64,000 nucleotides of DNA. Source: Pseudodesulfovibrio sp. Its GTDB lineage: Bacteria > Desulfobacterota > Desulfovibrionia > Desulfovibrionales > Desulfovibrionaceae. Below are positions 14,359 through 41,390 of this stretch, piece by piece. Position 1 is the first letter of the stretch; each line of letters starts with the position of its first letter. The notes below the pieces were generated by a model. It searched no databases. It was not told the DNA's origin and saw nothing but the letters and a program-made list of their open reading frames with translations. The stretch covers positions 1 to 64,000 of the forward strand of contig JAEINO010000008.1 in NCBI GenBank assembly GCA_016342345.1, in the 5' to 3' direction. Both the position numbers and the translations under genes were made by a program.

Positions 14359-15219
14359 ATGAACAAAAAGATTTTGGTTACCGGAGCAAAAGGGTTCATA
14401 GGAAGTGCCTTCACGCAGGAACTGGAGCGTCGAGGCGTGCAGTGGGTACCTTTTGACGGCGATGTGTGCCGCCAGGAGGATTTTTCTCCTTACGAAGATT
14501 GTTCTTCCGTTATGCATCTTGCCGGTAAAGTTCGTGTGGATAATACTCCGGAGAACATGCTTTGCCAGATGGATACGAACATCATGGGTGCTTACAATTC
14601 CGCCCGTTTTGCAGCTGAGCGAGGCTGTGCTTTTTATTATGCGTCGTCATGTTCTTACGACCCGCGGCAGCCGTTACCAAGCACCGAAGCCATTTCGCTT
14701 GTGCATTCCTCTCCTTATTCCTTTACTAAGTATTGCGCAGAAGTCCTTATTGAAGGATGGGTTCGATATTTTGATTTGCGTGGCGTGATTTTCAGAATAT
14801 TCAATGTGTACGGTCCTGGCCAAAGCAGAGGATTTGTTGTGCCGGATTTGCTTTCTCAGGTCGAGGCAGGGCGCGTCTCCGTTTATAATCTTGAAGACGA
14901 AAGAGATTTTGTCTTTGTGGATGATGTTGCGAATTTAATGGCAACTGCGGTGATGGTTGATCATGAAAGCACAGCAACGATAAATGTTGGAAGCGGTTTA
15001 AAATATAGTATTTCAGAAGTGTTGGAAGCAATATTCAAGTTGACTGGCACGTCTTTGCCCGTGGAAGATCGCGGGATACGGTCTGCCGTTCCTCAGAGCC
15101 AGGCCGATATTTCACGTGCCTTGGGATTGTTTGATTGGACCCCGAAAGTGGCATTGCCAGAGGGGTTGGCTAGAACGATATCGGAAAAGGCAATAATCGT
15201 ACCCTCGGGAGAAGTATGA
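14359..15219 (+). CDS. NAD-dependent sugar epimerase/dehydratase (SDR)
   Basis: 286 residues of an extended short-chain dehydrogenase: VTGAKGFIGS (dinucleotide-binding loop), YSFTKYCAE (catalytic YxxxK), and FNVYGPGQ. Such enzymes epimerise, dehydrate or reduce NDP-sugars. The ATG at 14359 is chosen because it starts the family fold and has a GCGAGAG run upstream; the frame opens 36 bp earlier. It is first of eleven close-packed genes and overlaps the next by 4 bp. The product sugar is not predictable; a 4,6-dehydratase is possible but the motif is not diagnostic. Confidence 0.87.
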   Translation: MNKKILVTGAKGFIGSAFTQELERRGVQWVPFDGDVCRQEDFSPYEDCSSVMHLAGKVRVDNTPENMLCQMDTNIMGAYNSARFAAERGCAFYYASSCSYDPRQPLPSTEAISLVHSSPYSFTKYCAEVLIEGWVRYFDLRGVIFRIFNVYGPGQSRGFVVPDLLSQVEAGRVSVYNLEDERDFVFVDDVANLMATAVMVDHESTATINVGSGLKYSISEVLEAIFKLTGTSLPVEDRGIRSAVPQSQADISRALGLFDWTPKVALPEGLARTISEKAIIVPSGEV

Positions 15220-15836
15220 GCATTCAAAAAGAGCTGGAGAGTTTTTGGAAAGGTGATTTTGGCGATGAGTATGTGAAACGTCATGATGAAGAGCGGATGG
15301 TCTCCGCAAGAACCTACCAGTTTAAAAAGATGTTGGACAAGACGGAGGACGTTCACAGTGTTGTTGAGTTGGGAACCAATCGGGGACACAATCTCGGGGT
15401 TCTCCACAACATGCTGCCTCAGGCGGAACTCTACGGTGCGGAAATAAATGATAGGGCCAGGGAACTGTGCATGCAGCAGACAGGAGTCAAGTCTGTTTTC
15501 CATGGTTCGCTTCTCGATATGCCCGAGGATCGGACTTATGATCTGTCCTTTACGGCAAGCGTTTTGATCCACATTGCCCCGGAGTCGCTTGGTGATGCGT
15601 ATGGCAAGTTGTACAGGCTGTCGAATCGGTACGTTCTGCTTTGCGAATATCACAATCCGACGCCTGTCGCGATAAACTATCGGGGTCATGAAAACAGGCT
15701 GTTCAAGCGTGATTTTGCAGGGGAGATGATGGATTTGTATCCTGATTTGGCTTTGAAGGATTATGGATTTTTCTATTCCCGAGACACTCAATACGGACTG
15801 ACTGACATCAATTACTTTCTTATGGAAAAATGTTGA
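15216..15836 (+). CDS. Pseudaminic acid biosynthesis-associated methylase
   Basis: 206 residues. The start SIQKELESFWKGDFGDEY and the VVELGTNRGHNLGVL SAM-binding loop match the small class I methyltransferases found beside pseudaminate genes (the 'pseudaminic acid biosynthesis-associated methylase' family). The family is named by gene neighbourhood; its exact substrate is not established to my knowledge. It is coupled to the SDR gene before it by an ATGA overlap. Its presence supports a nonulosonic-acid-linked pathway. Confidence 0.82.
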   Translation: MSIQKELESFWKGDFGDEYVKRHDEERMVSARTYQFKKMLDKTEDVHSVVELGTNRGHNLGVLHNMLPQAELYGAEINDRARELCMQQTGVKSVFHGSLLDMPEDRTYDLSFTASVLIHIAPESLGDAYGKLYRLSNRYVLLCEYHNPTPVAINYRGHENRLFKRDFAGEMMDLYPDLALKDYGFFYSRDTQYGLTDINYFLMEKC

Positions 15837-15853
15837 TTTCAAAGGAACAGACC

Positions 15854-16873
15854 ATGCAAATGCTTTCTTTGCGTCAAGCTTTTTCCGGGTTGGACACAGA
15901 AGCCAAAACTCGGCGTTACAGGGAGTTGTGGCATAAGGCTGGACGGTTCGAGATACTTCCCGACTACCCGTTGCATCTGGATCTGGAACTTTCCGGGGTC
16001 TGCAATCTGCATTGTTCGGATTGTTTTCAGGAAGCCCTTGATAAGAAGAAGCTCGGTTTGATGAAAACCTCGCTGTTTCAGCAATTGATTGACAGCGGTG
16101 TGCCTCGAGGCCTTTGCGCCATCAAGTTGCAGATTAGAGGCGAGTCTTTTCTTCATCCTGACCTTTTTTCGTTGATTCGGTATGCCAAGGACAGAGGCGT
16201 GCTGGATGTCCAGATAACCACCAATGGTACGCTGATTCGTGAGGACACCGTGGATGCGATTCTTCACAGCGGACTTGATGGAATTATTTTCTCAGTAGAT
16301 GTCCGCCACGAAGATGCCTGCTCTGATACTGCCGTGCCCCAAGGATATTCCCATGTGCCCAAAATGATCACTGCACTGCTTGAGCGGCGCAAGGAATTGG
16401 GGTTGACGCGGCCATGGGTTCGTCTCAAGGCCAGTACCGATGGGTCCTCGCCAGAGGTCATGGATTCGCTGAAGAAACGGTTGGTCGAGGCTTTCCCGTT
16501 GGCAGATATTCACATAGTGGGCTCCATTTTCAATTTCAAAAAGGATCAGGATTCGTATCCCGAACTGCGAAAGAATTATATCCTGAATCCCTGCGCCTAC
16601 TTGATGCAGCGTCTTGCCGTGTTCTGGGACGGTCAGACAACGGCCTGTTGTATGGATTATCATGGTGATTTCGGGTTGCCTTCAGTGGTGGATGCACCGA
16701 TTGAAACGATTTGGTCCTCGCCACAACTGGAGGCACTCCGCAAGGGGCACCTGCTCGGTAGACGGGAATCTCTTCCTATATGCAAGCACTGTCATCTCAG
16801 TGTGGAATCCGCGAATGAGCGCATATCGGTTGATGAAACCTTTCGTAACAAATTGGACTTTGAACTAGGTTAA
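15854..16873 (+). CDS. Radical SAM protein with C-terminal SPASM domain
   Basis: 339 residues. CNLHCSDC (Cys50, 54, 57) is the radical SAM cluster site. The C-terminal part (CAYLMQR ... GQTTACCMDYHGDFGLPSV ... CKHCHLS) is a SPASM-type auxiliary iron-sulfur domain. The ATG at 15854 is preferred over 15830 because AAAGGAA lies 6 nt upstream. Its neighbours are a pseudaminate-associated methylase and a second radical SAM gene, so the substrate is likely a sugar nucleotide or lipid-linked glycan. SPASM enzymes include peptide modifiers and aminoglycoside dehydrogenases, so the reaction is open. Confidence 0.87.
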   Translation: MQMLSLRQAFSGLDTEAKTRRYRELWHKAGRFEILPDYPLHLDLELSGVCNLHCSDCFQEALDKKKLGLMKTSLFQQLIDSGVPRGLCAIKLQIRGESFLHPDLFSLIRYAKDRGVLDVQITTNGTLIREDTVDAILHSGLDGIIFSVDVRHEDACSDTAVPQGYSHVPKMITALLERRKELGLTRPWVRLKASTDGSSPEVMDSLKKRLVEAFPLADIHIVGSIFNFKKDQDSYPELRKNYILNPCAYLMQRLAVFWDGQTTACCMDYHGDFGLPSVVDAPIETIWSSPQLEALRKGHLLGRRESLPICKHCHLSVESANERISVDETFRNKLDFELG

Positions 16874-16933
16874 GAAAAGAGTTCGGGTAACTGAATTGCG
16901 TGTCGTCTCTTGAGAGTACGGCAAGGAGTTGGT

Positions 16934-18181
16934 ATGTATTGTAGAATGGCTCGTGGCGTATATCTTCGCGCAAATGGTGAACTCAATTGCTATTGTTCCA
17001 CAGGTGAACAGATCCATTTGGGGCATCTTGATCAAGACCCGATGGATTGGGATTTTGTTAAAGACATATATTTAGGGCATAAATTTAGCAGATTGCGTGA
17101 CAGAATAAGTCATGATTCGTTACCGTTCCCCCGGCATTGCATTAAGTGCAACTATCTGGTCCCCGACAGTCCTCATGGTGTTGAAAAAGTTAATAAATCC
17201 ATTGAGTGGATGCACATTGAATCGTCTGCCCTGTGTAATTTGAAATGCCCTTTTTGCGTGCATGGGGTTTCGTCTTCAAAGCGTGTGATGCGACCCAAGC
17301 CTCATTTTCTCCCGCGCACGCTCTATCTGAAGATGCTTGATGATATAAAAAGAGCCGGTCTCGGCATCGAATGGATGTACTTCAGTGGCAGAGGAGAGCC
17401 GACACTCCACCCCGAAACATGGAAGATGGTTGAGGACGCCAAGCAGCGTTTTGACACTAATTTTCTCATGAATACAAATGGTAATGTTGCTTTTGATCCA
17501 CTCATTGTAGAGAGCGGTCTTGATAAGATTAAAATTGCTTTCGACAGTTTGGATCAGGAAACATATGCAAAATACCGTGTTGGCGGGAATGTTGAAACTC
17601 TTTTGAGATTGACGGATGATATCGTGGCGTACAAGCAAAAGAGCGGAAGCAAAACGCCCACTGTCATATGGCAGAAAGTTCTTTTCGATTTCAACAGTTC
17701 GCCGGAGGAAATAGCTCATTTTCAGCAAGTTGCTTTGGATCATGGTGTGGACAGGCTGCGCCTGTTCTTCACCGGGACAAAAGGTTTTGGTACTCATTCT
17801 GCTGATGACTACGATCTGTTTTTTCCTGATATAGAGATTCACAATCCCTTCAAGCGTGGTTTTGTGAGCGCGGAAGAGCTTGATAAGGCACGGGAATCTG
17901 CTGTCCTAAGTGGTTCTATTCCCGGCCTCATAAAGGTTCTCAACGATTATATGCATTGGGCTGAATTCGGCATGGAAGACAGGATCGACTATGATCGTTT
18001 TGCCACGTTGAGCCTTTGCAGCCCTGAGCTTTATGCCTTGCGACAACACGAAGAAGATGGCCCGGGTCGTCTGTCCGTTTATTGTGTTGCCCTGAAAAAT
18101 CTCGCCGACCTTTATGATCAGAAGGGGCATTCTGTCGAGGCTGCGCAATTCAATGCCTTGTTTAGAAGGATTCGGGTATGA
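16934..18181 (+). CDS. Radical SAM protein with an N-terminal (permuted) SPASM-like segment
   Basis: 415 residues. The radical SAM motif CNLKCPFC sits late (Cys101, 105, 108), with FSGRGEPTLHP as its GGE-like motif. Residues 3-72 have the layout of a SPASM domain (Cys3, Cys19, Cys21, a GHLD turn, an R-rich helix, then CIKC at 69-72), but SPASM normally follows the radical SAM barrel. The C-terminal 120 residues are helical and of unknown kind. The ATG at 16934 has AAGGAG 5 nt upstream; the frame opens at a TTG at 16910. It overlaps the next gene by 4 bp. Function unknown beyond radical chemistry on a likely glycan substrate. Confidence 0.82.
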   Translation: MYCRMARGVYLRANGELNCYCSTGEQIHLGHLDQDPMDWDFVKDIYLGHKFSRLRDRISHDSLPFPRHCIKCNYLVPDSPHGVEKVNKSIEWMHIESSALCNLKCPFCVHGVSSSKRVMRPKPHFLPRTLYLKMLDDIKRAGLGIEWMYFSGRGEPTLHPETWKMVEDAKQRFDTNFLMNTNGNVAFDPLIVESGLDKIKIAFDSLDQETYAKYRVGGNVETLLRLTDDIVAYKQKSGSKTPTVIWQKVLFDFNSSPEEIAHFQQVALDHGVDRLRLFFTGTKGFGTHSADDYDLFFPDIEIHNPFKRGFVSAEELDKARESAVLSGSIPGLIKVLNDYMHWAEFGMEDRIDYDRFATLSLCSPELYALRQHEEDGPGRLSVYCVALKNLADLYDQKGHSVEAAQFNALFRRIRV

Positions 18182-19212
18182 GTCAAGTAATGAATTTAGC
18201 GGACATACGGCCCGACAAACCCATGCAGAGCCTCTTTGTCGAACGCCAGAAGATGATTGAACGGTGTGGGGAATTGTTCATCGAGCAGCCCGAGAATTTT
18301 ATAACCAATGAAGCGTGTCCCTTGTGTGGATCTGAAGAATGCTCCGAGTATGGGGTTAAAGGGTTCACTCGGTATATGCGATGTGCGTGTTGCGAATTGC
18401 TTTATTTGGAGCGCGAACCGAAGGATTGCCTTCGCTTTGGTCCCATTACCGCGTCACCTGCGGCAGATGTTGCTGTGGAAGCCGTTCAGGCGACGACATA
18501 CGAGACGAGAAAGGTAAAGAAATTCGGGGCTGTACTTGATCGCCTCATGGAGATTGCAGATCCCCGGGAGCCGTTGCGGGTTCTGGATATAGGATGTGGG
18601 AGCGGATATTTTCTCGATTTGCTGCGAGATCGCACGGCATGGACCGGACTGGGCGTGGAGTTGAACGACAAGGCTGTTCGGACCGCCCGTGCACGGGGGC
18701 TTCAAATCGTTCAGGAACCTATTGCCTTGTTTCAGCCTGATCAGCTCTTTGATATATTGGTTTGCGTCGGCGTTCTTGGACATATTTCAAGACCGGAGCG
18801 CATGGCTTTGGATTGTCATCGTCTGTTGAAGGATGGTGGATTGATGCTTGTCAGAACACCAAATTATGCAGGGTTTGAAATGCAGGTGGTTGATATGCAA
18901 CACAACCACTTTGATCCCATGGAGACCATGGTGGTGCACAATATTGCCAGTATGAAGATGTTTCTGGAGAAGGGGGGATTTGAAGCTATGGAAATTTCCA
19001 CTCCAGGTCTGCTTGATGTGGAGATCGTGAGGCAGCAGGTTCGGGTGTTCGGGTGTGAGCTCGAAGCCGGTCGGTTTGAAAAGCGGTTGATTTTCGAGGA
19101 GTCTCCGGAGATGGAAACAGCCCGCCACGAGTTTTCCCGGTTTCTCGTAAATAACAACATGAGTGGCCTGATGCAGGCTGTGGCCAGAAAAATTCCTGCC
19201 CAGGTAGGGTGA
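18178..19212 (+). CDS. Class I SAM methyltransferase with N-terminal zinc ribbon
   Basis: 344 residues. Cys47/Cys50 (CPLC) and Cys69/Cys72 (CACC) form a zinc-ribbon-like unit. VLDIGCGSGYF (135-145) is SAM motif I. This layout is common in sugar C- or O-methyltransferases of surface-glycan and antibiotic clusters. It is joined by 4-bp overlaps on both sides. The sugar methylated is unknown. Confidence 0.85.
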   Translation: MSQVMNLADIRPDKPMQSLFVERQKMIERCGELFIEQPENFITNEACPLCGSEECSEYGVKGFTRYMRCACCELLYLEREPKDCLRFGPITASPAADVAVEAVQATTYETRKVKKFGAVLDRLMEIADPREPLRVLDIGCGSGYFLDLLRDRTAWTGLGVELNDKAVRTARARGLQIVQEPIALFQPDQLFDILVCVGVLGHISRPERMALDCHRLLKDGGLMLVRTPNYAGFEMQVVDMQHNHFDPMETMVVHNIASMKMFLEKGGFEAMEISTPGLLDVEIVRQQVRVFGCELEAGRFEKRLIFEESPEMETARHEFSRFLVNNNMSGLMQAVARKIPAQVG

Positions 19213-20453
19213 ATTTCTTGAGTCCTCTGCAACAGTTTTTCGACGGCACTGCCGAGGCGGCCATGGCGTTAGGAAAATGGGTTCGCTCCAATGGTTGGGC
19301 CGGGTATGATCCTTATGACCTTCCCGGCTATCTTTTTGACTGCCGAACAATGGGTACGCCTGTATCGAAAGAGGCGGAAGCAATCCTTCGAAGGCGGGAT
19401 CAGGATGATCCTTTGGGGGTGCGATGCGAACTTGGCATTGCACCAAAGGTCAATGCCAAGTCCATGGGGCTTTTCCTTGGTGCGTATTGTCTTTTGCAGG
19501 ATGTTTTGCCGGGTCAGGACTATTCCGTGGAAGTCCTGGCATGTGACGAGTGGCTGGCGCAGAATTCGGTTTCGGGCTTTGCCGGCACCGGATGGGGATA
19601 TCCCTTCAACTGGGAGAGTTACGTTGTCATCCCCGCAGGCGTTCCTACTGCCGTCAACTCCTGTCATGTCGGAGATGGCTATAGGGCCATGTTTAAAAGT
19701 ACAGGCAGTGTTCTTTGGCTTGAACGTTGTCTCCGAATTTCTGATTTTCTGCTGAATGATTTGAATGTTGATAGAGTTCCAGGCAGGGGATGCTGCTTCA
19801 GTTACACGCCGATAGATTTTTTTCATGTCAATAATGCCAATCTTGGTACAGCGGAATTCCTGCTCTGGACCGGGCTTGAAGGAGGGCGAGAGGAATTCGT
19901 CAATGCCGGGCTTGATGCGTTGGCCTTTTCTCTTTCGGATTTTGATGACCGGGGCGCGCTTGCCTATTGGGCTGAGGGGTTTGAGCCAAAACCTGATCTC
20001 GCGGGATTCATGGATCATTATCATACCGCTGCCGAATTGCGTTCACTGCTCAGAATTTGCCGAATGTTCCCGGAGCGGAACGATGTGAATGAGGCTTTTC
20101 AATCCTATTTTCAGTTTTATCTGGACGCTTTTTTTGATGTCGAGTCCAGGCCTGTTCTTCGTCCCGGATTTGACTGGCTTCCTTTTGATATCCACGCAGG
20201 GGCCGAAGCCGCGTACCTCCTGGGCGAGATGTTGCCCGATCATCCTGCCGCAAAGGAAAAGCTGATGGTCTTTCTTCCATGGTTTCTGGACTCCTGCCGC
20301 AATGCTGATGGCAGCTTTATTCATCGTATTGAAATGCGCGATGGTGAACAATTGGTGCGTCCGTTTCCTTTTTTGCGATGGGGACAGGCGTGGGTGCTGC
20401 GTGGACTTGCTTCGGTTTTGCAAGGAATCAGGGCAACCGGGGAAGCGTCATGA
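19209..20453 (+). CDS. Hypothetical protein, possible alpha/alpha-toroid fold
   Basis: 414 residues, no signal peptide. SNGWAGYDPYDLPGY near the N-terminus and GYPFNWES and HNTAEL-like segments recall six-hairpin/toroid proteins of polysaccharide loci (VpsJ-like), which resemble glycan epimerases or lyases. I cannot name catalytic residues. TTG and GTG starts are possible; the start used gives an ATGA-type overlap with the methyltransferase gene before it. In this operon it could act on a lipid-linked or nucleotide-linked glycan. Family placement is from general resemblance only. Confidence 0.6.
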   Translation: MNFLSPLQQFFDGTAEAAMALGKWVRSNGWAGYDPYDLPGYLFDCRTMGTPVSKEAEAILRRRDQDDPLGVRCELGIAPKVNAKSMGLFLGAYCLLQDVLPGQDYSVEVLACDEWLAQNSVSGFAGTGWGYPFNWESYVVIPAGVPTAVNSCHVGDGYRAMFKSTGSVLWLERCLRISDFLLNDLNVDRVPGRGCCFSYTPIDFFHVNNANLGTAEFLLWTGLEGGREEFVNAGLDALAFSLSDFDDRGALAYWAEGFEPKPDLAGFMDHYHTAAELRSLLRICRMFPERNDVNEAFQSYFQFYLDAFFDVESRPVLRPGFDWLPFDIHAGAEAAYLLGEMLPDHPAAKEKLMVFLPWFLDSCRNADGSFIHRIEMRDGEQLVRPFPFLRWGQAWVLRGLASVLQGIRATGEAS

Positions 20454-21703
20454 TACCGAATGTTCTTGTCATTTGTGAGAATTTTACAACTGCAATTCGG
20501 ATTGTTCCGGCATACCTTGCGTTGCGGGATAATGGTGTGGTCAATCCCATATTTTTTACGACGTTTGGGGAAGCTGGAACGATTTCTTATTTGGAAGAGC
20601 ACGGGGTCGAGTATCTTACGGTAAAGGACATTATTGATGATACGGATCGTGAGCAGTTGTTCGGATTGCGTGATGAGTATCGTGAAATATTTGATACATG
20701 CCGTGCCAAACATGCATACACGACCTGTCATTACAAGGGCGTTCCTTTGTTGCCGTTTATTGGCGACGAAGTTCTCCGTCTGAATCAGATGAAGATTTTT
20801 TGCAACTATGTGTTTCGCAAACTGGTTGGTCGTTTTGATCCGGCTCTCGTCTTTGTGGCATATTGTTCCGGCGGCAAAAAGAAACAGTATGTCACCATGG
20901 CAAACCATATGGGGATTCCGACCCTGCATTTGCAGTACGGATCGACGCTGCTTCCGAAAGGCACTGTTCGCAGAGAGTTGTTTTCAAGCAATTATTGCGT
21001 GTGGGGAGAGGCTTTTCGGGATTTGTATGTGGACCAGCCAGAAAAAAGATTGCGGACCATAGTCACTGGTGATCCGACATTCGATGCCTGTGCCCATGTT
21101 GATTCCGGGATGGTTCGGCAGAGGTTGGGGTTGGAAAGAAGCAATCGTCTGATTATGGTCGGTTTGTGTTTTTTGTCGGAATGTATTGAGGCGGTAGAAC
21201 AGTTGCGGGGTGCACGGGTTTCGCCAGATGATGTGTTTGTCTTTAAATTGCACCCTGCCTTGAGTGATCAGAAAGAGGAATTCGAGCAACATATCAAGAC
21301 TGCCGGGGTTTCTTACAGGGTGGTGGGACGAGAGATGTCTCCGTATGAATTGCTTCACTCCGCAGACCATTACCTTGCATTGGAATTGGAATCATTGTGG
21401 CTTGCCGCATTTCATTTCAATGTGATTCCTACCGTGGTTACGAGCTTCTTGCGCGTTTCGCGCGAGAGACAACCTTTTCCGTGGTTGTTCGATGCCTGTG
21501 CCTGCATGGATACATTGTGTTCGTTTGATCAGGTGGATCAGCTTGTCGCAAACGTGGACAGGGAACTGTTCGAAGAGGCGAAGAGACGGTTATGGCACAG
21601 GGGGGATTTTATGGCTTCCCAAAGGGTCGCTGCTGTGGTCGAAGGGCTTGCGACAGAGTGTCCCTTTGAACAAATCAAAGAGGCTGTGGAGGCGATTCGA
21701 TGA
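20450..21703 (+). CDS. GT-B-like surface carbohydrate protein
   Basis: 417 residues from the ATG at 20450, which overlaps the preceding stop by 4 bp; the open frame extends 72 bp further upstream without support. VTGDPTFDA in the middle and FVFKLHPALSDQ recall the second half of GT-B enzymes related to 2-epimerases and capsule-type glycosyltransferases. The N-terminal 80 residues look like a Rossmann half-domain. Likely a transferase or epimerase-like enzyme on a sugar nucleotide; no specific family signature is seen. Confidence 0.6.
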   Translation: MIPNVLVICENFTTAIRIVPAYLALRDNGVVNPIFFTTFGEAGTISYLEEHGVEYLTVKDIIDDTDREQLFGLRDEYREIFDTCRAKHAYTTCHYKGVPLLPFIGDEVLRLNQMKIFCNYVFRKLVGRFDPALVFVAYCSGGKKKQYVTMANHMGIPTLHLQYGSTLLPKGTVRRELFSSNYCVWGEAFRDLYVDQPEKRLRTIVTGDPTFDACAHVDSGMVRQRLGLERSNRLIMVGLCFLSECIEAVEQLRGARVSPDDVFVFKLHPALSDQKEEFEQHIKTAGVSYRVVGREMSPYELLHSADHYLALELESLWLAAFHFNVIPTVVTSFLRVSRERQPFPWLFDACACMDTLCSFDQVDQLVANVDRELFEEAKRRLWHRGDFMASQRVAAVVEGLATECPFEQIKEAVEAIR

Positions 21704-22311
21704 CGTTTGACCCTCGAAGACTGCCTCCTCATGGGCATGAGTCCTTTGGTCGTGCGGTGGCGTTGTTGCGCGAAAGTGGAGCGGATATGAGGTCTCTTGT
21801 TTTTCTGACCTCTGTTCAGAGTGCACATCATTATACGGAATTGGAAAATGGGCGTCTAGTCACTTGCCGGAGCGATACGGCCTTGTTCGTTGCTGAACAG
21901 GGTGGGGCATGCCTTGTTCCAAAGGACTATGGCTACGGCTTTTGGGGTGGGGGAGGCAAGATTAATTCCGTAAACAGCAGACTTTTCAAGGGAAAGTTCA
22001 ACCTGTATAATTATCAGAAGCCAATGAGCGACTGCTTGCAGGATTTTCTCGAACAGGATTCACGGCTTGGTTTTTTTGATGGGGAACCGCTGTATGTGGG
22101 AAGCGACTACAATCTTTCCCATTACGCAGGGAGTGCGTATCTGTATCCCATTGATGTATTGGCAGCAATTGTGGACGCTGAAAAACCGGAGCGCATTTTC
22201 TGTGTGGATGAGGCCGGTGAAAGCCTGGAGCATTATATCCTGTGTCATCTCGCTGCGGATCGACAGATTGAGTACGATCTCATATCTGGGGAGGTCTCAT
22301 GTGTGGGATAG
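21700..22311 (+). CDS. Hypothetical protein in the glycan modification operon
   Basis: 203 residues, not recognised. It is soluble, rich in Tyr and Gly, with a GYGFWGGGGKIN loop near the middle and LYPIDVLAAIVDAEKPERIFCVDE near the end that resembles a small Rossmann strand-helix unit. It overlaps the upstream gene by 4 bp and the downstream asnB-type gene by 13 bp, so it is almost certainly translated and co-regulated with them. It may be an accessory protein of the AsnB-type amidotransferase, based on position only. Confidence 0.6.
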   Translation: MTFDPRRLPPHGHESFGRAVALLRESGADMRSLVFLTSVQSAHHYTELENGRLVTCRSDTALFVAEQGGACLVPKDYGYGFWGGGGKINSVNSRLFKGKFNLYNYQKPMSDCLQDFLEQDSRLGFFDGEPLYVGSDYNLSHYAGSAYLYPIDVLAAIVDAEKPERIFCVDEAGESLEHYILCHLAADRQIEYDLISGEVSCVG

Positions 22312-24140
22312 CAGGCGTATTGCGCCTTGACGGAGGTCCTTCCAATCCTGAAGCTGTACATGCCATGCTTCATGTCATGCGGCATCGGGGCCCGGATGAT
22401 CGGGATGTGCGATCTTTTGGTCCTTTGACTCTTGGTCATTTGCGTCTGTCCATTATCGCGCCGTCCCCGGCCGGGCGGCAACCCATGTCCTGTGATGGTC
22501 AGCGGGCCTGGGTTTCATATAATGGCGAACTCTACAATTATCTTGAATTACGTGAAGAAATGCGTGCCAGAGGTGTCCGTTTTGCTACGGAAACCGATAC
22601 GGAAGTTTTTCTGGCAGCCTGCCTTGAATCTGGAACGGAGGCATTTGTCCGCTTCAACGGCATGTGGGCAGCCGCGATCTGGGAGCCTCATTCCCGACAC
22701 CTGCTCCTTTGCAGGGACCGTTTGGGCATCAAGCCGCTCTACTATTATCAGGACGGGAAGCATTTGGTTTTTGCCTCCGAGGTAAAGGGTGTTCTGGCAT
22801 GGATGCGTCACACGGGCATGGTGCCGACCCTTTCTGTGGAGTCTGCCAGAACGTATCTCGGAAGCGGCCTTGTTGATGGTTTGGACGAGACCTTTTTTGA
22901 GGGAATTCGGCGTTTTCCGGCTGGAAATGTGTTGCATGTCCGGGATGGTCGCGTGGGAGAATTCGAGTGCTGGTGGGATGTCGAGAAACGCGCAACAATC
23001 TTGAGGCAGGAGCGAATCGATTGTACGCCTGACAGCCTGGCCGAAGAACTGCATTTTCTGCTCGCCGATGCCATGCGACTGCACTCCAGGGCCGATGTGC
23101 CTGTGGGTGTCTGTCTTTCGGGTGGGTTGGATTCCAGTGCAGTGGCTGCTCATGCGGCACCATGCATCTCCGGGCTTGAAACGTTTACGTCAGCTTTTCC
23201 AGAGGGAGAAGAGTGGAATGAAACGTCACATGCGGCGGTTGTGAATGAGCGGTTCGGACTGCAAGGGCATACGTGTATGGTGGACGGTTCCACTCTGTTC
23301 GAAACTCTGCCGAAAATTTTGTGGCACCTTGATGAACCCTCGCTGGCTTTGGGCGTCTTTCCTCAATGGCATGTCATGGAGCTTGCTTCAAACAATGTCA
23401 CTGTGGTCATGGATGGGCAGGGAGGCGATGAGCTTTTTGCCGGGTATGATCCGTATGTGGCGGTGCTTCTGTATTCCAAACTCATGTCCGGAGACATACT
23501 TGGCTACAGAGAGACATTGCGTGGTTTTCATAGAAATTATGGGCCGCATCGAGCCATGGCATTGGGGCGTGAAGTCAAGGATCTCTATTTGGCCAGAGCC
23601 TGGGAGTCAGCTCCGGAAAATGCAACGGAATTGCTCAATGCCCGTTTGCATCAGGAGCTGAAAAGGACACGATTGCCAGCCCTGCTGCGCTATGAGGACC
23701 GGCTTTCCATGGCCTTCTCCATTGAATCCCGTGTTCCTCTTCTCGATTACCGTCTTGTGGAATTTGCCCTTTCCCTTCCCGAATCCCTCAAGATGGGGCC
23801 CGGGTGGAGCAAGTATGCCTTGCGGCTTGCATTGGATGGACATTTGCCGGATTCCATTGTCTGGCGCAAGGATAAAAAAGGATTTCCAACGCCTCTTGTC
23901 GAGTGGATGAAAGGTTCCATGGGACCGCGTGTCAGGGAGTTGATCCAGAGCAGTGAGTTGCTCGACTCGATTGCTCCTGATCTTGTCAAAACCACGCTTG
24001 CCGAATGGGATGGAGCCAGTGGTAACGAGTGGCGACTTTGGCGGCTCCTGAGCCTTGAAGTATGGCATGCAAGCTATTTGTCTCGCCTTGATCGTGAATT
24101 GATTTCCGTTCAAGTCGTCAATAATGGAGAAGATACATGA
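22299..24140 (+). CDS. asnB: Asparagine synthase (glutamine-hydrolysing) family amidotransferase
   Basis: 613 residues. Cys2 (MCGIAGV) is the Ntn glutaminase nucleophile, YNGELYN and the RDRLGIKPLYY loop complete the class II glutaminase domain (1-220), and SGGLDSS at 275-281 is the ATP pyrophosphatase loop of the synthetase half. AsnB proteins inside O-antigen loci (for example WbpS of Pseudomonas O6) amidate uronic acids rather than aspartate; the setting here suggests a similar role, perhaps on the diamino-uronic acid or a nonulosonate carboxylate. Genuine asparagine synthesis cannot be excluded. Its 3' end overlaps the next gene by 4 bp. Confidence 0.93.
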   Translation: MCGIAGVLRLDGGPSNPEAVHAMLHVMRHRGPDDRDVRSFGPLTLGHLRLSIIAPSPAGRQPMSCDGQRAWVSYNGELYNYLELREEMRARGVRFATETDTEVFLAACLESGTEAFVRFNGMWAAAIWEPHSRHLLLCRDRLGIKPLYYYQDGKHLVFASEVKGVLAWMRHTGMVPTLSVESARTYLGSGLVDGLDETFFEGIRRFPAGNVLHVRDGRVGEFECWWDVEKRATILRQERIDCTPDSLAEELHFLLADAMRLHSRADVPVGVCLSGGLDSSAVAAHAAPCISGLETFTSAFPEGEEWNETSHAAVVNERFGLQGHTCMVDGSTLFETLPKILWHLDEPSLALGVFPQWHVMELASNNVTVVMDGQGGDELFAGYDPYVAVLLYSKLMSGDILGYRETLRGFHRNYGPHRAMALGREVKDLYLARAWESAPENATELLNARLHQELKRTRLPALLRYEDRLSMAFSIESRVPLLDYRLVEFALSLPESLKMGPGWSKYALRLALDGHLPDSIVWRKDKKGFPTPLVEWMKGSMGPRVRELIQSSELLDSIAPDLVKTTLAEWDGASGNEWRLWRLLSLEVWHASYLSRLDRELISVQVVNNGEDT

Positions 24141-25891
24141 CCCAGCCAGTGGATGTAATCATAACTCTTGATTATGAGACTTTTGATACAGATGATTTTC
24201 TCTTGCGTTCGGATCTGAATATCGACTGGGACAGGGATCTGATCGAATCCACGGAGAAATTGGCAACGTTTCTTGAAGGACATGGCGCAAAACTGACAGT
24301 TCTTTGGGAGACGGTTGAGTATTTCTGGCTTGTGGACAACGGCAGGGATGAGGTCGCTGAACGCATTGCAGGGCAGCTTCAGGATCTCATGCGTCGAGGG
24401 CATGATGTTCAGCTGCACTTGCATCCCGCCTGGCAAGGTGTGCGCTTGCAAGAGGGGCAGTACGTTTGGCCCGACCCTAACCGGCGCATTCCGACCATGC
24501 CTGTCAGCGAATTTGCCTCGCTGCTTGAGCGTTCCATTGAGACCATGATTGCCCTTTTCAAACCCATTCGCCCGGATTACCGTGTGGTTGGATTCCGGGG
24601 GCGCAGTTATGATGTGGAACCCTTTCAGACGATTGCCGACACACTGTCCGCACATGGCATCCTGGCGGACAGTTCCAAGCACGGAGAGGGACCGGTCGCT
24701 GTACAGTTGCCCAATCTTGAGAAAGTGGCCCCTGAAGGCATGGCTGATTTTCTGGAGTATCCAATTTATATGATTGATGGTCGTCGATGGGATTACAGCG
24801 GTGCGCTTCGCAATGTTGAAACGCCCCTTCACACCCTTGACTGGAGTGATCCGTCTGCAAAGACTTTGGTCATGACCGGGCATTGCAAGCAACTCATTCA
24901 CTATGATCTTTTTGAAAACTGTCTGAAAGGCCTCCGCGAAAAGTTGGGAAATCGGCTTTGTTACAAGGGATGGCAGGAAACAATAGAGAGGGATCGAGTC
25001 GAGATGCGACTGGATTCGCGCTTGCGGGGAAAATACGGGAAACGTTATTTTGAATCAAAGTGGAAAATCTCCGAGGACCCTTTTGGTTCAATGGCGTTGA
25101 ATGATCCCTATTATCGGACGTTACTTGAAATGGTCCCGTCGGGATGCAATTCCCTGCTTGACATGGGGTGCGCCGAAGGTTCGTTGACATCGGCAATTTC
25201 CGAGCGATGTGGTGCCATCCGAACGATGGGTATTGATATTGCGCCCACGGCAGTAGCTCGTGCAGCCGAACGTTTCCCGAGGCTTGGGTTCAAAGTGTCG
25301 TCAATGCTGACTTTCCAGCATGGAGACAGGTTTGAGCTTGTCACTGCCAGCCAGAATTTTTTGTATTTTACCGCTCATGAGCGGGCAGTGCTCTTTGACC
25401 ACGTTGAATCCATGCTTGCACCGACCGGGCATTTCCTTTTGGCGTGGTGGACGGATAGCAATTATGGCAACGAGGAAAATCTGATTGAAACAGAGTGCTC
25501 TGATCGCTTTAAGGTCGTGGAGGCAAGGAACTACTCAAGCGACAGTGAAAGTAACGAGATAAAGGGAAATCACAGGTTGCTTCTTGTCACGCGTCGTATT
25601 GATCTTGATGAAGAGGCTATGCTGAATCGAATTTTCTGGGAGGATAAAAGGGTTGTTTGTGTTTCAAGGCGAAATGCTGATTTTCAATCCCGTTTTGCTT
25701 TGAAGAGTCGTGAATGGCATACCGAGAAGAGCAGCGAATGTGATGTCCTCATCTGTGATGTTCCGTCTCCTTCCCTTTTGGAGACATTGCGGTCCCATGG
25801 CTCTTTGGTACTTCTCGGGGCCGATCTTCCGGCAGGGTTCCTTCTTGTGGAGAGTCAGGGCCAGATCAAGTTGGCAGCAAAAATGGAGTGA
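24137..25891 (+). CDS. Fused NodB-like polysaccharide deacetylase and NodS-like methyltransferase
   Basis: 584 residues in at least three parts. Residues 1-280 look like a polysaccharide deacetylase (LDYETFDTDD with Asp12; metal-binding HLHP at 94-97). Residues 305-470 look like a NodS-type methyltransferase (DPFGSMALNDPYY, then LLDMGCAEGSL at 340-350, then DIAPTAV). Residues 480-584 are a small unknown alpha/beta domain. NodB removes an N-acetyl group from the terminal GlcNAc of Nod factor and NodS N-methylates the freed amine; a single chain doing both on a surface glycan is an attractive reading but is inferred. It overlaps its upstream neighbour by 4 bp. Confidence 0.8.
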   Translation: MTQPVDVIITLDYETFDTDDFLLRSDLNIDWDRDLIESTEKLATFLEGHGAKLTVLWETVEYFWLVDNGRDEVAERIAGQLQDLMRRGHDVQLHLHPAWQGVRLQEGQYVWPDPNRRIPTMPVSEFASLLERSIETMIALFKPIRPDYRVVGFRGRSYDVEPFQTIADTLSAHGILADSSKHGEGPVAVQLPNLEKVAPEGMADFLEYPIYMIDGRRWDYSGALRNVETPLHTLDWSDPSAKTLVMTGHCKQLIHYDLFENCLKGLREKLGNRLCYKGWQETIERDRVEMRLDSRLRGKYGKRYFESKWKISEDPFGSMALNDPYYRTLLEMVPSGCNSLLDMGCAEGSLTSAISERCGAIRTMGIDIAPTAVARAAERFPRLGFKVSSMLTFQHGDRFELVTASQNFLYFTAHERAVLFDHVESMLAPTGHFLLAWWTDSNYGNEENLIETECSDRFKVVEARNYSSDSESNEIKGNHRLLLVTRRIDLDEEAMLNRIFWEDKRVVCVSRRNADFQSRFALKSREWHTEKSSECDVLICDVPSPSLLETLRSHGSLVLLGADLPAGFLLVESQGQIKLAAKME

Positions 25892-25896
25892 CGCAT

Positions 25897-26589
25897 ATGC
25901 GGGTTCTTGGAGTGATACAGTGCAGGATGTCTTCGTCCAGACTGCCAGGAAAGGCTCTTGCCGAACTTGGAGGCCGAACCGTTTTGGAGTGGGTTATTGC
26001 CCGGTCCTGTTTGGCCGGGGGCCTGGACAAGGTTGTGCTAGCAACATCCACAGATGCATCGGATGACTCTGTGGCAGAGTTGGGGAGCAGGCTCGGTATT
26101 GCTGTCGTGCGTGGGGATCTGGATGATGTGTTGTCCCGGTACATGCTTGCACTTTCCCTGTACCCGGCTGAAGCTGTTGTTCGCATCACCGCAGACAACC
26201 CTCTAACCGATTTTGTCTCCATTGATCAGGTGTGCCGTCTCTTTTTTTCAGAGGAACTTGATTATGGCTATGCCGCGCGCATTCCCTATGGGGCCGGTGT
26301 TGACATCTTTCGGACCTCCATGCTTGAAAAGGTGGCGGTGGGTGCGACTTGTAAAAGACACCGGGAGCACATAAACACCTGGTTTCTGGATAACCATCTC
26401 TCTTGTCGGATTGGGTCCGTATCACCACCCATGGGTCTGGATCGGCCAGATGTTCGCTTGACGCTGGATACCCGTGATGATCTGGAGAGATTGCGCATGA
26501 TTTTTCGAGAACTGAGTCAGCCGGAAAGCTGTCCTCTTTCAGAGAGCATAGATGCATATGACCGTGTTGGCATCAACCGTCAGGACTGA
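25897..26589 (+). CDS. Cytidylyltransferase (SpsF / NeuA-like)
   Basis: 230 residues with IQCRMSSSRLPGKAL, the nucleotide-binding start of SpsF-type cytidylyltransferases, plus RITADNPLTD. They activate 3-deoxy or other sugars as CMP/CDP derivatives. The ATG at 25897 has GGAG 8 nt upstream; a GTG at 25888 overlapping the previous stop is the alternative. It is last in the eleven-gene operon, and its final 10 bp overlap the 3' end of the convergent kinase gene. The substrate is unknown. Confidence 0.83.
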   Translation: MRVLGVIQCRMSSSRLPGKALAELGGRTVLEWVIARSCLAGGLDKVVLATSTDASDDSVAELGSRLGIAVVRGDLDDVLSRYMLALSLYPAEAVVRITADNPLTDFVSIDQVCRLFFSEELDYGYAARIPYGAGVDIFRTSMLEKVAVGATCKRHREHINTWFLDNHLSCRIGSVSPPMGLDRPDVRLTLDTRDDLERLRMIFRELSQPESCPLSESIDAYDRVGINRQD

Positions 26590-27467
26590 CCCGCCCACTG
26601 TATGGCCGTGCTTGCAAAGCGTTTATATTTTTCAAGATCCCGCATGAAAGTTGTATTGCCGTCTTCCATTTCCTTGAAGATGAAGGCAATTTTTCTGATG
26701 AAATCGGCAGCCAGCAGCAAGTACCCGTGCTGTTTTTCCGAGGGAGTCAGGGGCATTGCCTGTTCATAATGGCTCATGAATTTTTCCGATATCTGCTTAT
26801 TCCCTTTGGATAGCCTGAATGCCGCAAACAGGGCATCTGCCACCAGTGGATTGTGGGAAAAGCTCTCAAAATCGATAAGATATGATTTTCCGTCCAGTCC
26901 GAAAAGGACATTGCCGGGGTGCAAGTCGTTGTGGACCAGGATGGACCTGGTCAATATTTTGGCTTCGTCGGCCTGTTCAAGTGTGGGAGTGTATTTGGAG
27001 AGGTCGTTTTTAATCAGAATTTTGAGAAGTGTCTTTTTTTCAACGTGAAGGGGAGCACGAATTCCCTGCCCGGGTATGGTCGACAAGATCTGGTGCATTT
27101 TTGCAACGACGTTGGCCCCTTGTTCAACGAAATCTGCCGGAGGCTTTGCAAGGGGAGGTATGTATTCGCAGATTGAGTAGAAATATTTATCCTTGCGAAG
27201 CAAAGTGCTTCCCTCGCGGGTATGCAGGAGGGAGGGTGTGATTCCGGCCATGGAGCAGGCTTTCAACATCGAATCAAGCACATGCGCCCGTTCAGGCGAG
27301 AGCCTCCAAAATTTCTTGAGTACCAGATTCGCTGAGCCGGTTTTTATGCGACACAGGTCCCAGCTTGAGGCAAGGGGGGCAACTGCGGCATCCTTGGAGA
27401 TGTCGAAGGAACTCAGGATATCCTGTAGAATATCCGTTTTGGGAGCAGGTATTACAGGTCTTCCCAT
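26580..27467 (-). CDS. Aminoglycoside phosphotransferase-fold kinase
   Basis: 295 residues. VHNDLHPGNVLFG holds the catalytic Asp and Asn of the APH/choline kinase superfamily and YLIDFESFSHNPLVADA the metal-binding Asp. Members phosphorylate sugars, choline, homoserine or antibiotics. The start at 27467 overlaps the preceding neuB-like gene by 16 bp; the frame runs 60 bp further. Its coupling to a NeuB-like synthase suggests a sugar or nonulosonate-related substrate rather than drug resistance. Confidence 0.82.
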   Translation of the reverse strand: MGRPVIPAPKTDILQDILSSFDISKDAAVAPLASSWDLCRIKTGSANLVLKKFWRLSPERAHVLDSMLKACSMAGITPSLLHTREGSTLLRKDKYFYSICEYIPPLAKPPADFVEQGANVVAKMHQILSTIPGQGIRAPLHVEKKTLLKILIKNDLSKYTPTLEQADEAKILTRSILVHNDLHPGNVLFGLDGKSYLIDFESFSHNPLVADALFAAFRLSKGNKQISEKFMSHYEQAMPLTPSEKQHGYLLLAADFIRKIAFIFKEMEDGNTTFMRDLEKYKRFASTAIQWAGQS

Positions 27468-28492
27468 CGGATGAAAGCCTTTTCGGGAACAGCCCGTTTC
27501 AGGGGACGACCTTGGACCTCGTCCCAATGTTCCACACCAATTCCCATGCGGGGCTTGCCGAATGTCACGTTGTCCTGATTGATGATGTCATCAGGTTTTA
27601 GGTCTCTTTTTGCAACGAGGGCAACTCTATGCGGGCTGCAGGGCCGAAGGCCCTTGCTCATTGCCTTTTGGGGCTCTCCCATGGCCGCGTAAACCTGGTG
27701 CATTGTGCGGATGACCTCGGCCAGATCGTCAATGGTCACTGACCATATGTGTTCACATGCTTCCATGAAGCGATCCCGAGAGATTGGTTTTTCGATAACG
27801 TTGGCTCCGGCAGCGACGGAAGCGTACACCATTTCGTATCCGTCATAATGGTCGGAAAGCCCGACAGGGATGTTGAACAGATCACTGTACCGTTGCATGA
27901 CACGGAGATTGTGCTGGGAAGCTTTGCCGGGATGACCATCGGGCTGATGGTTGACGATCAACCGTTCACATCCCGCATCCAGTGCGGTTTTGATCGCCAT
28001 TTCAACTTCATACTGCCAGGCCCCTCCTGTATCAAGAAAAAGGGCAAGGTCGGTTTGTGCGGCGTAACGGATGAGCGGGTAGTGGACAATGTCAGGCGAG
28101 GCTATCTTTATTGCTTCTGCGCCGATATTGACCAGGAAATCCACACGTCCTCTGTCATGGGCCGTGGCCATGAAGGGAACATCTAGTTCATCGGCCAGTT
28201 TTTTGATTTCGTGATGCTGCTCCAAGGTGAATTGGTACCGGCGCATGTGTTCAATCAGCGGGACCGAGTATTGCTTGTCCCTGATGCTGAAGGTCTTGAC
28301 TGCGGACGGGTCAAAGACTTCAGTTTCATAAAAGAGTTCCGATTTGATGCAATCGGCACCGGCTTCGACAGCTTTTCTTGCCAGCATGAGTGCAATGTCC
28401 AGATCGCCTTCATGACAGGTGCCGAGCTCGGCCACAAAGAAAGGCGCTTGCCCTTCTCCAATGAGTTTTTTCCCAATTTTTACGTTTTTCAT
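27452..28492 (-). CDS. neuB: N-acetylneuraminate synthase family protein, divergent (NeuB-like)
   Basis: 346 residues. A TIM barrel starting VAELGTCHEGDLDIA, with the conserved Lys in ADCIKSE, is followed by a C-terminal SAF/antifreeze-like domain (from about residue 285, SPHRVALVAKRDL). NeuB enzymes condense phosphoenolpyruvate with a hexosamine to make nine-carbon nonulosonic acids. The AELGTCHEGD variant in place of AEIGxNHNGD and the IKSE in place of VKFQ mark it as a distant paralogue of the synthase at 31885. The start shares one base with the stop of the radical SAM gene upstream. The product may be an unusual nonulosonate. Confidence 0.86.
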   Translation of the reverse strand: MKNVKIGKKLIGEGQAPFFVAELGTCHEGDLDIALMLARKAVEAGADCIKSELFYETEVFDPSAVKTFSIRDKQYSVPLIEHMRRYQFTLEQHHEIKKLADELDVPFMATAHDRGRVDFLVNIGAEAIKIASPDIVHYPLIRYAAQTDLALFLDTGGAWQYEVEMAIKTALDAGCERLIVNHQPDGHPGKASQHNLRVMQRYSDLFNIPVGLSDHYDGYEMVYASVAAGANVIEKPISRDRFMEACEHIWSVTIDDLAEVIRTMHQVYAAMGEPQKAMSKGLRPCSPHRVALVAKRDLKPDDIINQDNVTFGKPRMGIGVEHWDEVQGRPLKRAVPEKAFIRWEDL

Positions 28493-29544
28493 TATTTGTT
28501 CGTGGAGGTTGTGTCTTCGGGGTTGTTGTCAGTATATTTGATGATCGGAATTTTTCTGTCGCCAACTTTGAGCATGTCCCCGACATACTCCCCGCCATCC
28601 GGGCAAAGGGTGCAGCCGGTGTGTTCAAGTCTTCGACCTGTACGCATGTCGCGACGGAATGAACGGAATTTTTCAGAATTCCAGAGAGTCTTGAGTGAGG
28701 AGGATTGCACTGTGCCCATGTCGTGATGCAGATGATAGTCTCCGTGGCACGGGATTACGACACCGTCCCATGTGATAAACACTCGTTGAAACGGGGATTG
28801 GCAAACATAGTTCGGATCATGTTTGATACGCGAGGGGTCTTCACGGTGCTGTTCGGCTATGACTGCGATCCGGTCCACATATGGAGCCCAGTAGTCGTAG
28901 TATTCGGGTGTATCGTCCACAACACTGGAAATGGTCTGGATGCGTACCAGTGGTTTGGATATCCTGCGTTCCTGCTTGATCTCGGCAAGTCGGCGGACTG
29001 TTTTTGTGATTTGATCGAAGGTGATGGGTTTGCGAATTCGTTCGTAATCATCATATAGGCCGTCAATGGAAAAGGAAATCCAGTCCAGTCCTGCATCGAC
29101 AAGGTCCACGAGCATGGACTCCGTCAGGAGGCCTCCGTTCGTGAGGAAGGCTACATCCCGTATTCCTTTTGCTTTTGCGTAGCGAACCATTTCAATAAGC
29201 CGCGGGTTCATTGTTGGTTCTCCCCGCCAGCTGAGTTTGATGGAAAAAACATTGTGGGCTGCACACTCGTCAATGATTTTGCAATAAAGATCGAAGTCCA
29301 TGATTCCCCTCAGGGAGCCATCATCCATTTGTGCCCGAGTGCACATTGGACATTGCAGTTGGCAACTGAGGGCGGCCTCGATGTCAACTGTCTGGGGAAA
29401 GTTCGGGATAATGTTCAGACGGGGAAACCAATGCCATTTGAATCGGTCCCAGAGCAGAGGGAAAAAATGTCCGCGTTTGAGGAAGTAGAGAATGTTGTCC
29501 AGGCGTTTGTTGATCACGAAATAGTTGATATTAATTTTCATCAT
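28492..29544 (-). CDS. Radical SAM protein with SPASM-like domain
   Basis: 350 residues. CQLQCPMC (Cys61, 65, 68) is the cluster motif and LSWRGEPTMNP the GGE-like motif. The C-terminal part (YVCQSPFQRVFITW, VVIPCHGDYH, CTLCPDGG) is SPASM-like, for one or two auxiliary clusters. Two ATGs stand next to each other at the start; the second may also be used. It lies between a NeuA-like and a NeuB-like gene, so a nonulosonate or its precursor is a plausible substrate. Confidence 0.87.
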   Translation of the reverse strand: MMKININYFVINKRLDNILYFLKRGHFFPLLWDRFKWHWFPRLNIIPNFPQTVDIEAALSCQLQCPMCTRAQMDDGSLRGIMDFDLYCKIIDECAAHNVFSIKLSWRGEPTMNPRLIEMVRYAKAKGIRDVAFLTNGGLLTESMLVDLVDAGLDWISFSIDGLYDDYERIRKPITFDQITKTVRRLAEIKQERRISKPLVRIQTISSVVDDTPEYYDYWAPYVDRIAVIAEQHREDPSRIKHDPNYVCQSPFQRVFITWDGVVIPCHGDYHLHHDMGTVQSSSLKTLWNSEKFRSFRRDMRTGRRLEHTGCTLCPDGGEYVGDMLKVGDRKIPIIKYTDNNPEDTTSTNK

Positions 29545-29565: not shown

Positions 29566-30273
29566 CTATACACGTTTTTTTGTCACATCATGGTTGAGTG
29601 CGTCATAGGCTTCGGCAATGACGAGGTCTATCGGTTCATCAATGTCCACCGAGTGGATCTTAGACATCAGATATCCTTTTTGCGGGCTGCCATGAAATGT
29701 TCGTGCCTTAAGAAAGGCTGGAATCGAAAAAGCATATGTGCTTCCGTTGTCGATGACCATTTTGGGGAGTTCCTGGCGGTTTTTTTGAGCCCAATCGGGC
29801 CAGACGAAGCGCAGGAATCCTTTTTCATCTTCGGTTTTTGCCATGTGAGGCGGGAAAGAGTACTCCGAAACCGCTACTGCAAAATCACACTTTCCCTGCA
29901 ATACCAAATCGACGGTTCCAGCGATATCTTTAGCTTTTCTGAGAGGGGCGGCAGGGAAAAGGCAGCACAGGTAGTCCCATGTGCGCCCCGCCTTTTCTTC
30001 CTGAAACAAAAAATCCAGGCAAACGTCCGCAAGCCCTACCGTGTCTCCTGCCAAATTGTCAGGACGGCGTGTCGTCTGTGCGCCGAAGTTTTCAGCAATG
30101 GTTGCTATTTCAGAATCGTCCGTGGAGACCACGATTCGTTCGAACAGGTTGGTTTTGAAGGCTTCCTCAATGGTATTCGCGATAACCGGACGGCCTTTGA
30201 ACGGGGCAATGTTTTTTCGTGGAAAACGTTTTGACCCGCCACGAGCGGGAATAAGCGCGATGACTTTGTGCAT
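29566..30273 (-). CDS. neuA: CMP-nonulosonate cytidylyltransferase (NeuA/PseF-like)
   Basis: 235 residues starting ALIPARGGSKRFPRKN, the CTP-binding loop of acylneuraminate cytidylyltransferases, with the LFPAAPLR and DIDEPIDL segments. It transfers CMP from CTP onto a nonulosonic acid, giving the donor for transferases. The ATG at 30273 begins the motif; the longer open frame to 30459 has no family similarity. First gene of the leftward unit 30273-26580, and divergent from 30486. Sialic, pseudaminic and legionaminic substrates cannot be told apart. Confidence 0.9.
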   Translation of the reverse strand: MHKVIALIPARGGSKRFPRKNIAPFKGRPVIANTIEEAFKTNLFERIVVSTDDSEIATIAENFGAQTTRRPDNLAGDTVGLADVCLDFLFQEEKAGRTWDYLCCLFPAAPLRKAKDIAGTVDLVLQGKCDFAVAVSEYSFPPHMAKTEDEKGFLRFVWPDWAQKNRQELPKMVIDNGSTYAFSIPAFLKARTFHGSPQKGYLMSKIHSVDIDEPIDLVIAEAYDALNHDVTKKRV

Positions 30274-31196: not shown

Positions 31197-31233
31197 CGCG
31201 AAATTCATTAATTAAACAATCAATTTGGAATCC

Positions 31234-31860: not shown

Positions 31861-31884
31861 TTAAGATTTTCAGGAGTTGGTCAA

Positions 31885-32946: not shown

Positions 32947-32954
32947 GTGACCCG

Positions 32955-38541: not shown

Positions 38542-38602
38542 TATTGTCTGCACACAGCGTGGTTTCAAGAGGGATTCAACGAGTTGTAAAGTCGGAGTGG
38601 GC

Positions 38603-39403: not shown

Positions 39404-39425
39404 TTCCCTCGAAGATGAGCCGTTC

Positions 39426-41377: not shown

Positions 41378-41390
41378 TTTTTGGTTTGCC

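Follow-up and report, generated by a model that had tools for sequence, protein, structure and literature searches.

An unusual eleven-gene operon with a radical SAM cassette in a glycan locus of Pseudodesulfovibrio

What is made by an operon that combines two radical S-adenosylmethionine (SAM) enzymes with an amidotransferase, a toroid-fold protein and a methylase of a pseudaminic-acid-associated family? The question is raised by a contig (JAEINO010000008.1) of the 4.15-Mb assembly GCA_016342345.1 of a Pseudodesulfovibrio sp., of which we analyzed the first 64,000 bases (the window). Eleven open reading frames (ORFs) of the window's ORF list, g01 to g11, lie on the + strand at 14359-26589, all of them as described in an earlier reading of the bare DNA (the sequence-only reading), inside a locus of about 44 kb (19-44416) with 40 main ORFs, the 11 of the operon and 29 others. 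We consider it probable that a nonulosonic-acid-type (sialic-acid-like) sugar is made by a cytoplasmic pathway and modified by the operon, with flagellin as its probable destination. The operon is real and unusual, it lies within a known kind of locus, and its radical SAM cassette is the notable point.

Sugar genes around the operon and the likely target

The locus encodes two NeuB-type synthases, CMP-sugar (cytidine monophosphate-sugar) transferases, a PseG-like hydrolase and an MptE-like (Maf-type) protein. Both synthases belong to the NeuB family (PF03102, 181 and 297 bits against a cut-off of 22.1), and the PF02348 cut-off is passed by g11 and by the ORFs starting at 29566 and 41391, which are thus CMP-sugar synthetase family proteins. 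The 3'-most operon gene, g11, is convergent with a set on the minus strand: an APH-like kinase with an uncertain start (26580-27527, PF01636, 1.5e-11), a divergent NeuB-type synthase (27452-28492, PF03102, 2.7e-53; under the NeuB and PseI cut-offs), a third radical SAM/SPASM enzyme (28492-29544, PF04055 and PF13186) and a PseF-like CMP-sugar transferase (29566-30270, PF02348; TIGR03584 at 167 bits against 206). A PIG-L deacetylase, the second NeuB and the PseG-like hydrolase follow on the + strand (31225-34058), identified by family matches.

The family of g02, TIGR03587, occurs in 16 of the 345 class genomes sampled (own genome included). We compared its neighborhoods (13.9- to 20-kb stretches from 13 further genomes, with the three focal genomes left out) with 20 control stretches of 20 kb away from g02 loci, which came from nine of the genomes concerned and three relatives and were hand-picked, not drawn at random. 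NeuB was matched in 12/13 g02 stretches (the exception being genome G009) and in 0/20 controls, and a CMP-transferase in 12/13 and 2/20, respectively. The g02 family therefore goes with NeuB.

Membrane-like segments were defined as 19-residue hydrophobic stretches with a mean of at least 1.8. The 40 main ORFs of 19-44416 contain none (the operon maximum is 1.62), and by the same measure three such segments are found in a desaturase encoded at 47103. A lipid-linked glycan pathway is expected to bring a flippase. Modification of a lipid-linked glycan, one option of the sequence-only reading, is therefore disfavored, and a CMP-sugar product, another of its options, is the likeliest by our analysis. 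The MptE-like (Maf-type) protein (1943-3370, + strand; PF01973, 67.6 against 34.6 bits) is a candidate flagellin glycosyltransferase; its family contains the Maf flagellin glycosyltransferases, which act in the cytoplasm. The genome carries flagellin genes on other contigs, and a second MptE-like family protein is found elsewhere in it.

It could be argued that the locus makes a lipopolysaccharide (LPS) O-chain or another lipid-linked surface polysaccharide, of which the operon modifies the repeat unit. This would fit with several glycosyltransferase genes that the locus contains (GT2, GT4/GT1-type, GT9), with the flippase-type genes that adjoin g06 homologs in two Ignavibacteria loci and with the passages on the amidotransferase WbpS, which concern A-LPS (anionic LPS; PMC7468200). 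We regard this explanation as rather unlikely: no flippase or polymerase is seen among the 40 main ORFs, which have no membrane-like segment (the search did not extend to flippases in the rest of the genome), and an MptE-like protein is present.

Further ORFs lie in and beside the locus. A B12-binding radical SAM protein is encoded at 36968-38470, and three ORFs at 38597-41413 have no Pfam match at E 0.001 and are 42 to 52% identical to counterparts in the same locus of a relative (G028, see below). At the edge of the locus, before the fatty acid desaturase, lies a gene (44842-46815) for an ankyrin-repeat protein of 657 aa, which has a hydrophobic segment at its N-terminus.

Conservation and modular structure in same-genus genomes

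In the same-genus genome G028, g01 to g09 and g11 are present in identical order at 47 to 69% identity (g01 61%, g03 67%, g04 64%, g05 55%, g06 66%, g07 55%, g11 62%), while g10 has no match and g09 and g11 are separated by 158 bp. One flank is kept as well, with NadE, Gfo/Idh-hexapeptide, WecB, GT2, GT9, FkbM and radical SAM genes; so is the other, with APH (41%), NeuB (79% to 27452), radical SAM (74% to 28492), CMP-transferase, PIG-L (70%), the second NeuB (80%) and the PseG-like gene (53%), followed by SpsF, WecB and a glycosyltransferase. Since the flanking genes are syntenic too, the conserved unit is the locus, wider than the operon. G028 also encodes an MptE-like protein (81.9 bits).

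A second relative, G023, shows a different arrangement: on one strand, the order is NeuB (51% to 27452), CMP-transferase, APH-like kinase (26%), g04 (59% and 36%), g02 (60%) and g03 (64%). The two values for g04 arise because this copy (locus L055, 3883-5144) is split in two overlapping frames, either a broken gene or an assembly error; the 59% applies to the first half and the 36% to the second, which is much less similar. Within the 40 kb fetched there was no match to g05-g08 or g10 at E 1e-3, and g01, g09 and g11 have distant homologs (31, 35 and 38%). The G023 island contains LegB (507 against 475 bits) and acetamidino genes (AglZ/HisF2 and WbuX), all over curated cut-offs, PseC-like and PseG-like proteins under their cut-offs, and WbqC and formyltransferase genes. 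The G023 and G028 islands border on five common genes (56 to 81% identical), presumably the dihydroorotase region, and differ in their inner content, which would fit a variable hot spot of glycan genes.

By these comparisons, the operon falls into a methylase/radical-SAM cassette (g02-g04), an accessory block made up of g05-g08, and the optional g10. In each of three genomes, all from one genus, the cassette has a NeuB-type synthase, a CMP-transferase and a kinase as neighbors, in two arrangements. The sequence-only reading had treated the eleven genes as a single, strictly coupled unit, which does not agree with the absence of g10 from G028 and the presence of close copies of only g02-g04 in G023. 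It had also named scattering of the genes in relatives as a finding that would speak against it; the genes are scattered in G023 and remain together in G028.

The families of g03, g06 and g08 have a narrow distribution. Among 98 relatives (own genome included), g08 is confined to the own genome and G028 (2/348 genomes of the class sample, the own genome again counted), g06 in these two and, at 25 to 27%, in two others, while g10 had no match in any of the 97 other relatives at E<=1e-20. For g03 there were 4/345 class genomes at E 1e-60. A 395-genome phylum sample, which did not list G028 (a genome that has g07), held g07 at full length in the own genome only, with three other matches that were partial and weak; in a 228-genome phylum sample, g04 had one further match, to model positions 1-283. 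Viral contigs yielded no relative of g06, g07 or g08, and plasmids none of g08.

Could chance then have brought the eleven genes together in a glycan hot spot, with several of them belonging to no shared pathway? The coming and going of g10 and g05-g08 among relatives, the common borders and differing content of the G023 and G028 islands, and the small number of genomes with g06, g08 and g03 would all be in line with such a history. We nevertheless judge it improbable, as G028 holds ten genes in one order at just 47 to 69% identity and g02, g03 and g04 remain together in the third, rearranged locus of G023.

Nine of the ten operon junctions overlap. From g01 to g11 they measure 4, 7, a gap of 60, 4, 4, 4, 4, 13, 4 and 4 bp, the gap between g03 and g04 holding if g04 starts at the ATG at 16934. 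Hence the overlap range of 4 to 13 bp stands, and the eight overlapping junctions counted earlier become nine. Elsewhere in the locus, overlaps are listed for 14/24 junctions between genes on the same strand, 8 of these measuring 1 to 25 bp, a count that is affected by some uncertain ORF starts outside the operon. In G028, with starts picked by alignment, four of nine junctions overlap (4, 4, 13 and 41 bp), and at the other five the genes are 1 to 158 bp apart. Short overlaps are likewise common at other junctions of the locus and thus say little about stoichiometry; we dropped the earlier argument from strict coupling to a stoichiometric pathway. Scans for promoters and terminators gave 18 and 20 sites, against 13.4 and 16.3 in shuffled sequences, and no operon boundary was drawn from them.

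Gene products and a proposed pathway

The products named in the sequence-only reading were compared with family models. The first gene, g01 (14359-15219; all operon genes are on the + strand), encodes a LegB-like short-chain dehydrogenase/reductase of the NAD-dependent epimerase/dehydratase type (PF01370, 2.4e-34), which lies far below the cut-off of the LegB model TIGR04180 (113 against 475 bits). The predicted methyltransferase g02 (15216-15836) is a member of TIGR03587, the pseudaminic acid biosynthesis-associated methylases (243.2 bits, cut-off 112.05). Both radical SAM enzymes pass the PF04055 cut-off of 29.5 bits and carry a CxxxCxxC motif: g03 (15830-16873; 40.4 bits, motif at residue 58) also matches the SPASM domain PF13186, and g04 (16934-18181; 40.7 bits, motif at 101) has a cysteine-rich N-terminus and is under the cut-off of NF033640. 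Cys 3, 19, 21, 69 and 72 of g04, upstream of the radical SAM motif, are kept in the G028 and G023 copies. Aligned with SPASM by hhalign, this N-terminus is in register at residues 40-73, weakly (probability 3.7%, E 0.012), and a permuted SPASM domain is plausible.

Downstream, g05 (18178-19212) is a class I methyltransferase (PF13489, 4.3e-20); read before as a zinc-ribbon methyltransferase, it has two N-terminal CxxC pairs. No Pfam match at E 0.1 and no usable hit in a sequence search against solved structures was obtained for g06, g07 or g08. The GT-B-like glycosyltransferase suggested for g07 (20450-21703) is possible; the protein has one HP motif, at 268, and no family match (NF046086 weakly, at 23 bits against 200). 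The orphan g08 (21700-22311, 203 aa) has indeed no family match in the libraries scanned; its structure model is poor (predicted local distance difference test score, pLDDT, 54), every fold match was above E 0.001, and its profile does not resemble that of g07. An AsnB-type glutamine-dependent amidotransferase with Cys2 is encoded by g09 (22299-24140; TIGR01536, 409.6 against 267.1 bits), without reaching the cut-off of the WbpS-type model TIGR03108 (352.6 bits, cut-off 816.9). The two-part g10 (24137-25891), read before as a deacetylase-methyltransferase, has the methyltransferase in its C-terminal part (PF13649, 3.9e-12 at 341-431); the N-terminal part, compared with NodB-type polysaccharide deacetylases, has no Pfam deacetylase match at E 0.1 and only a DYE triplet, and may possibly be a deacetylase. 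The last gene, g11 (25888-26589), encodes the SpsF-like cytidylyltransferase (CTP_transf_3, PF02348, 5.7e-22).

The toroid expected for g06 (19209-20453) is borne out by a structure model, built from 26 sequences (pLDDT 94.0, predicted template modeling score 0.93), which is an (alpha/alpha)6 toroid with the fold of cellobiose 2-epimerase and N-acylglucosamine 2-epimerase (AGE). Its top fold matches are cellobiose 2-epimerases (RmCE with Z 30.8 and a root-mean-square deviation of 3.4 over 351 residues aligned), and the likeness is at fold level, with about 12% identity to the epimerases. Glycoside hydrolase family 76 (GH76) mannanases, glucuronyl hydrolases and AGE follow close behind, the hydrolases with fold scores nearly as high as those of the epimerases, and the modeled fold by itself does not decide between epimerase and hydrolase. 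A scan of named genomes with two short peptide patterns, which may omit records near the own genome, yielded 26 loci with distant g06 relatives, all at <=31% identity and mainly from Acidobacteria and Verrucomicrobia; a lack of close relatives there is thus weakly indicated. An AsnB homolog is present in 20/26 fetched loci and starts <=0.5 kb downstream of the g06 homolog in 16/26, so that the pairing recurs outside this operon. In Acidobacteria and Verrucomicrobia, a gene for an uncharacterized toroid protein thus immediately precedes that of an AsnB-type amidotransferase (16/26 loci, L015-L037). No NeuB was matched in the 26 loci. In loci from Ignavibacteria and Bacteroidetes, g06 homologs stand next to an ADH-Gfo/Idh fusion as well as glycosyltransferase and flippase-type genes; a similar fusion, recognized by eye, stands beside a g06 homolog in two same-order genomes.

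For the pathway we infer the following steps, in this order and with flagellin as the target. The NeuB-type synthases would build the acid, and PseF/SpsF-like enzymes would activate it with CMP. The sugar would be methylated by g02, and g03 and g04 would act on it, or on its precursor, by radical chemistry. A carboxylate would be amidated by g09; mutant evidence from P. gingivalis shows the AsnB-type WbpS turning a uronic acid into its uronamide (PMC7468200), and by analogy with this precedent amidation is the likely g09 step. The methyltransferase g05, the epimerase-like toroid g06, the possible glycosyltransferase g07, g08 and the optional g10 may form a strain-specific extension. Finally, the MptE-like (Maf-type) protein probably transfers the finished sugar to flagellin in the cytoplasm. 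We hold with moderate confidence that the product is a modified nonulosonic-acid-type sugar. More tentatively, and rather doubtfully as a whole, the g03/g04 pair might rebuild the carbon skeleton of this sugar, together with the TIGR03587 methylase as a mobile three-gene cassette, followed by amidation and the g05-g08 extension; both sugar and chemistry would then be undescribed.

Sets of radical SAM, AsnB-type and methyltransferase genes are typical of natural-product clusters, and g09 has matches below cut-off to lasso and macrolactam cyclases. These points would favor a small diffusible natural product, a modified peptide or aminosugar, over a surface glycan. Such a product is very improbable here: the lasso cyclase model NF033535 gives 261 bits against a cut-off of 525, no precursor peptide, peptidase or transporter was recognized in the main ORFs (small ORFs were not searched for specifically), and in three genomes the genes are syntenic with NeuB genes. 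The missed cut-off led us to drop the lasso-peptide reading.

Several observations weigh against a nonulosonic-acid-type sugar for flagellin. All tested equivalog cut-offs were missed (NeuB 210 and 385 against 400, PseF 167 against 206, PseG 118 against 154, LegB 113 against 475); the sugar is thus not predicted to be neuraminic (Neu), pseudaminic (Pse) or legionaminic (Leg) acid and may not be a nonulosonate. The families of g06 and g04 are not nonulosonate-specific: g06 homologs adjoin AsnB or the ADH-Gfo/Idh fusion where no NeuB matched, and the further g04 relative lies among genes read by eye as glycosyltransferases. A Rhodobacteraceae plasmid (L044, 15043-16449) also encodes a g04-type protein, which is flanked by NadE and a large calcium-binding protein and has no glycan gene among its listed neighbors. 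The window has no known flagellin gene, its MptE-like protein does not match that of G028, and a small membrane protein could escape a scan of main ORFs only. Matches of the g03/g04/28492 type occur in 4/13 g02 loci and 3/20 controls, no clear excess; lacking a class-wide excess, the link between radical SAM enzymes and nonulosonates rests on three genomes of one genus.

With the B12-binding type included, radical SAM enzymes are found near g02 in 5/13 loci; proteins like that at 36968-38470 occur in 3/13, with 1/20 in the controls. Two of the three control stretches with a g03/g04/28492-type match lie on contigs of g02 loci and have CMP-transferase matches, so that they may belong to glycan loci as well. 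These controls weakened the view of radical SAM enzymes as a general mark of nonulosonate islands in the class, and our claim concerns the g02-g04 cassette, not radical SAM enzymes in general (class-wide 5/13 against 3/20 controls). If this cassette does act on a sialic-acid-like sugar, it would represent new chemistry and a compact set for in vitro work; the action of radical SAM enzymes on such a sugar becomes a testable question.

Comparison with known glycan systems

In full-text literature searches, no paper turned up for radical SAM enzymes with legionaminic acid, and the matches listed for pseudaminic acid had neither term in title or abstract; among the matches listed for nonulosonic acid (20 of 114), no link to radical SAM enzymes was seen. 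No operon of this make-up was found in the literature searched, in agreement with the earlier view of a glycan-precursor operon that matches no described pathway.

Nonulosonic-acid (pseudaminic/legionaminic) flagellin glycosylation islands are known from Campylobacter and Aeromonas. Our locus resembles them in its NeuB-type synthases, CMP-transferases, PseG-like hydrolase, MptE-like (Maf-type) protein and methylases. It differs in having three radical SAM enzymes (g03, g04 and 28492), AsnB, the toroid protein and the orphan, and in not reaching the curated Neu/Pse/Leg models. With the WbpS/WbqG-type amidotransferases, as presented in the passages cited, g09 shares its AsnB membership, Cys2 and a place in a glycan locus (PMC7468200), whereas its score for TIGR03108 is 353 against 817 bits.

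Several radical SAM/SPASM genes amid sugar-nucleotide and glycosyltransferase genes are also found in a region of the Brachyspira hyodysenteriae plasmid pBHWA1, which the cited passages describe as potentially involved in lipooligosaccharide (LOS) biosynthesis or glycosylation (PMC4267127). Unlike our locus, that region has rhamnose-type genes and, over the 28 kb fetched, nothing that matches NeuB, and its radical SAM proteins are 20 to 33% identical to those described here. Radical SAM enzymes in glycan loci are, going by these passages, already in print (PMC4267127).

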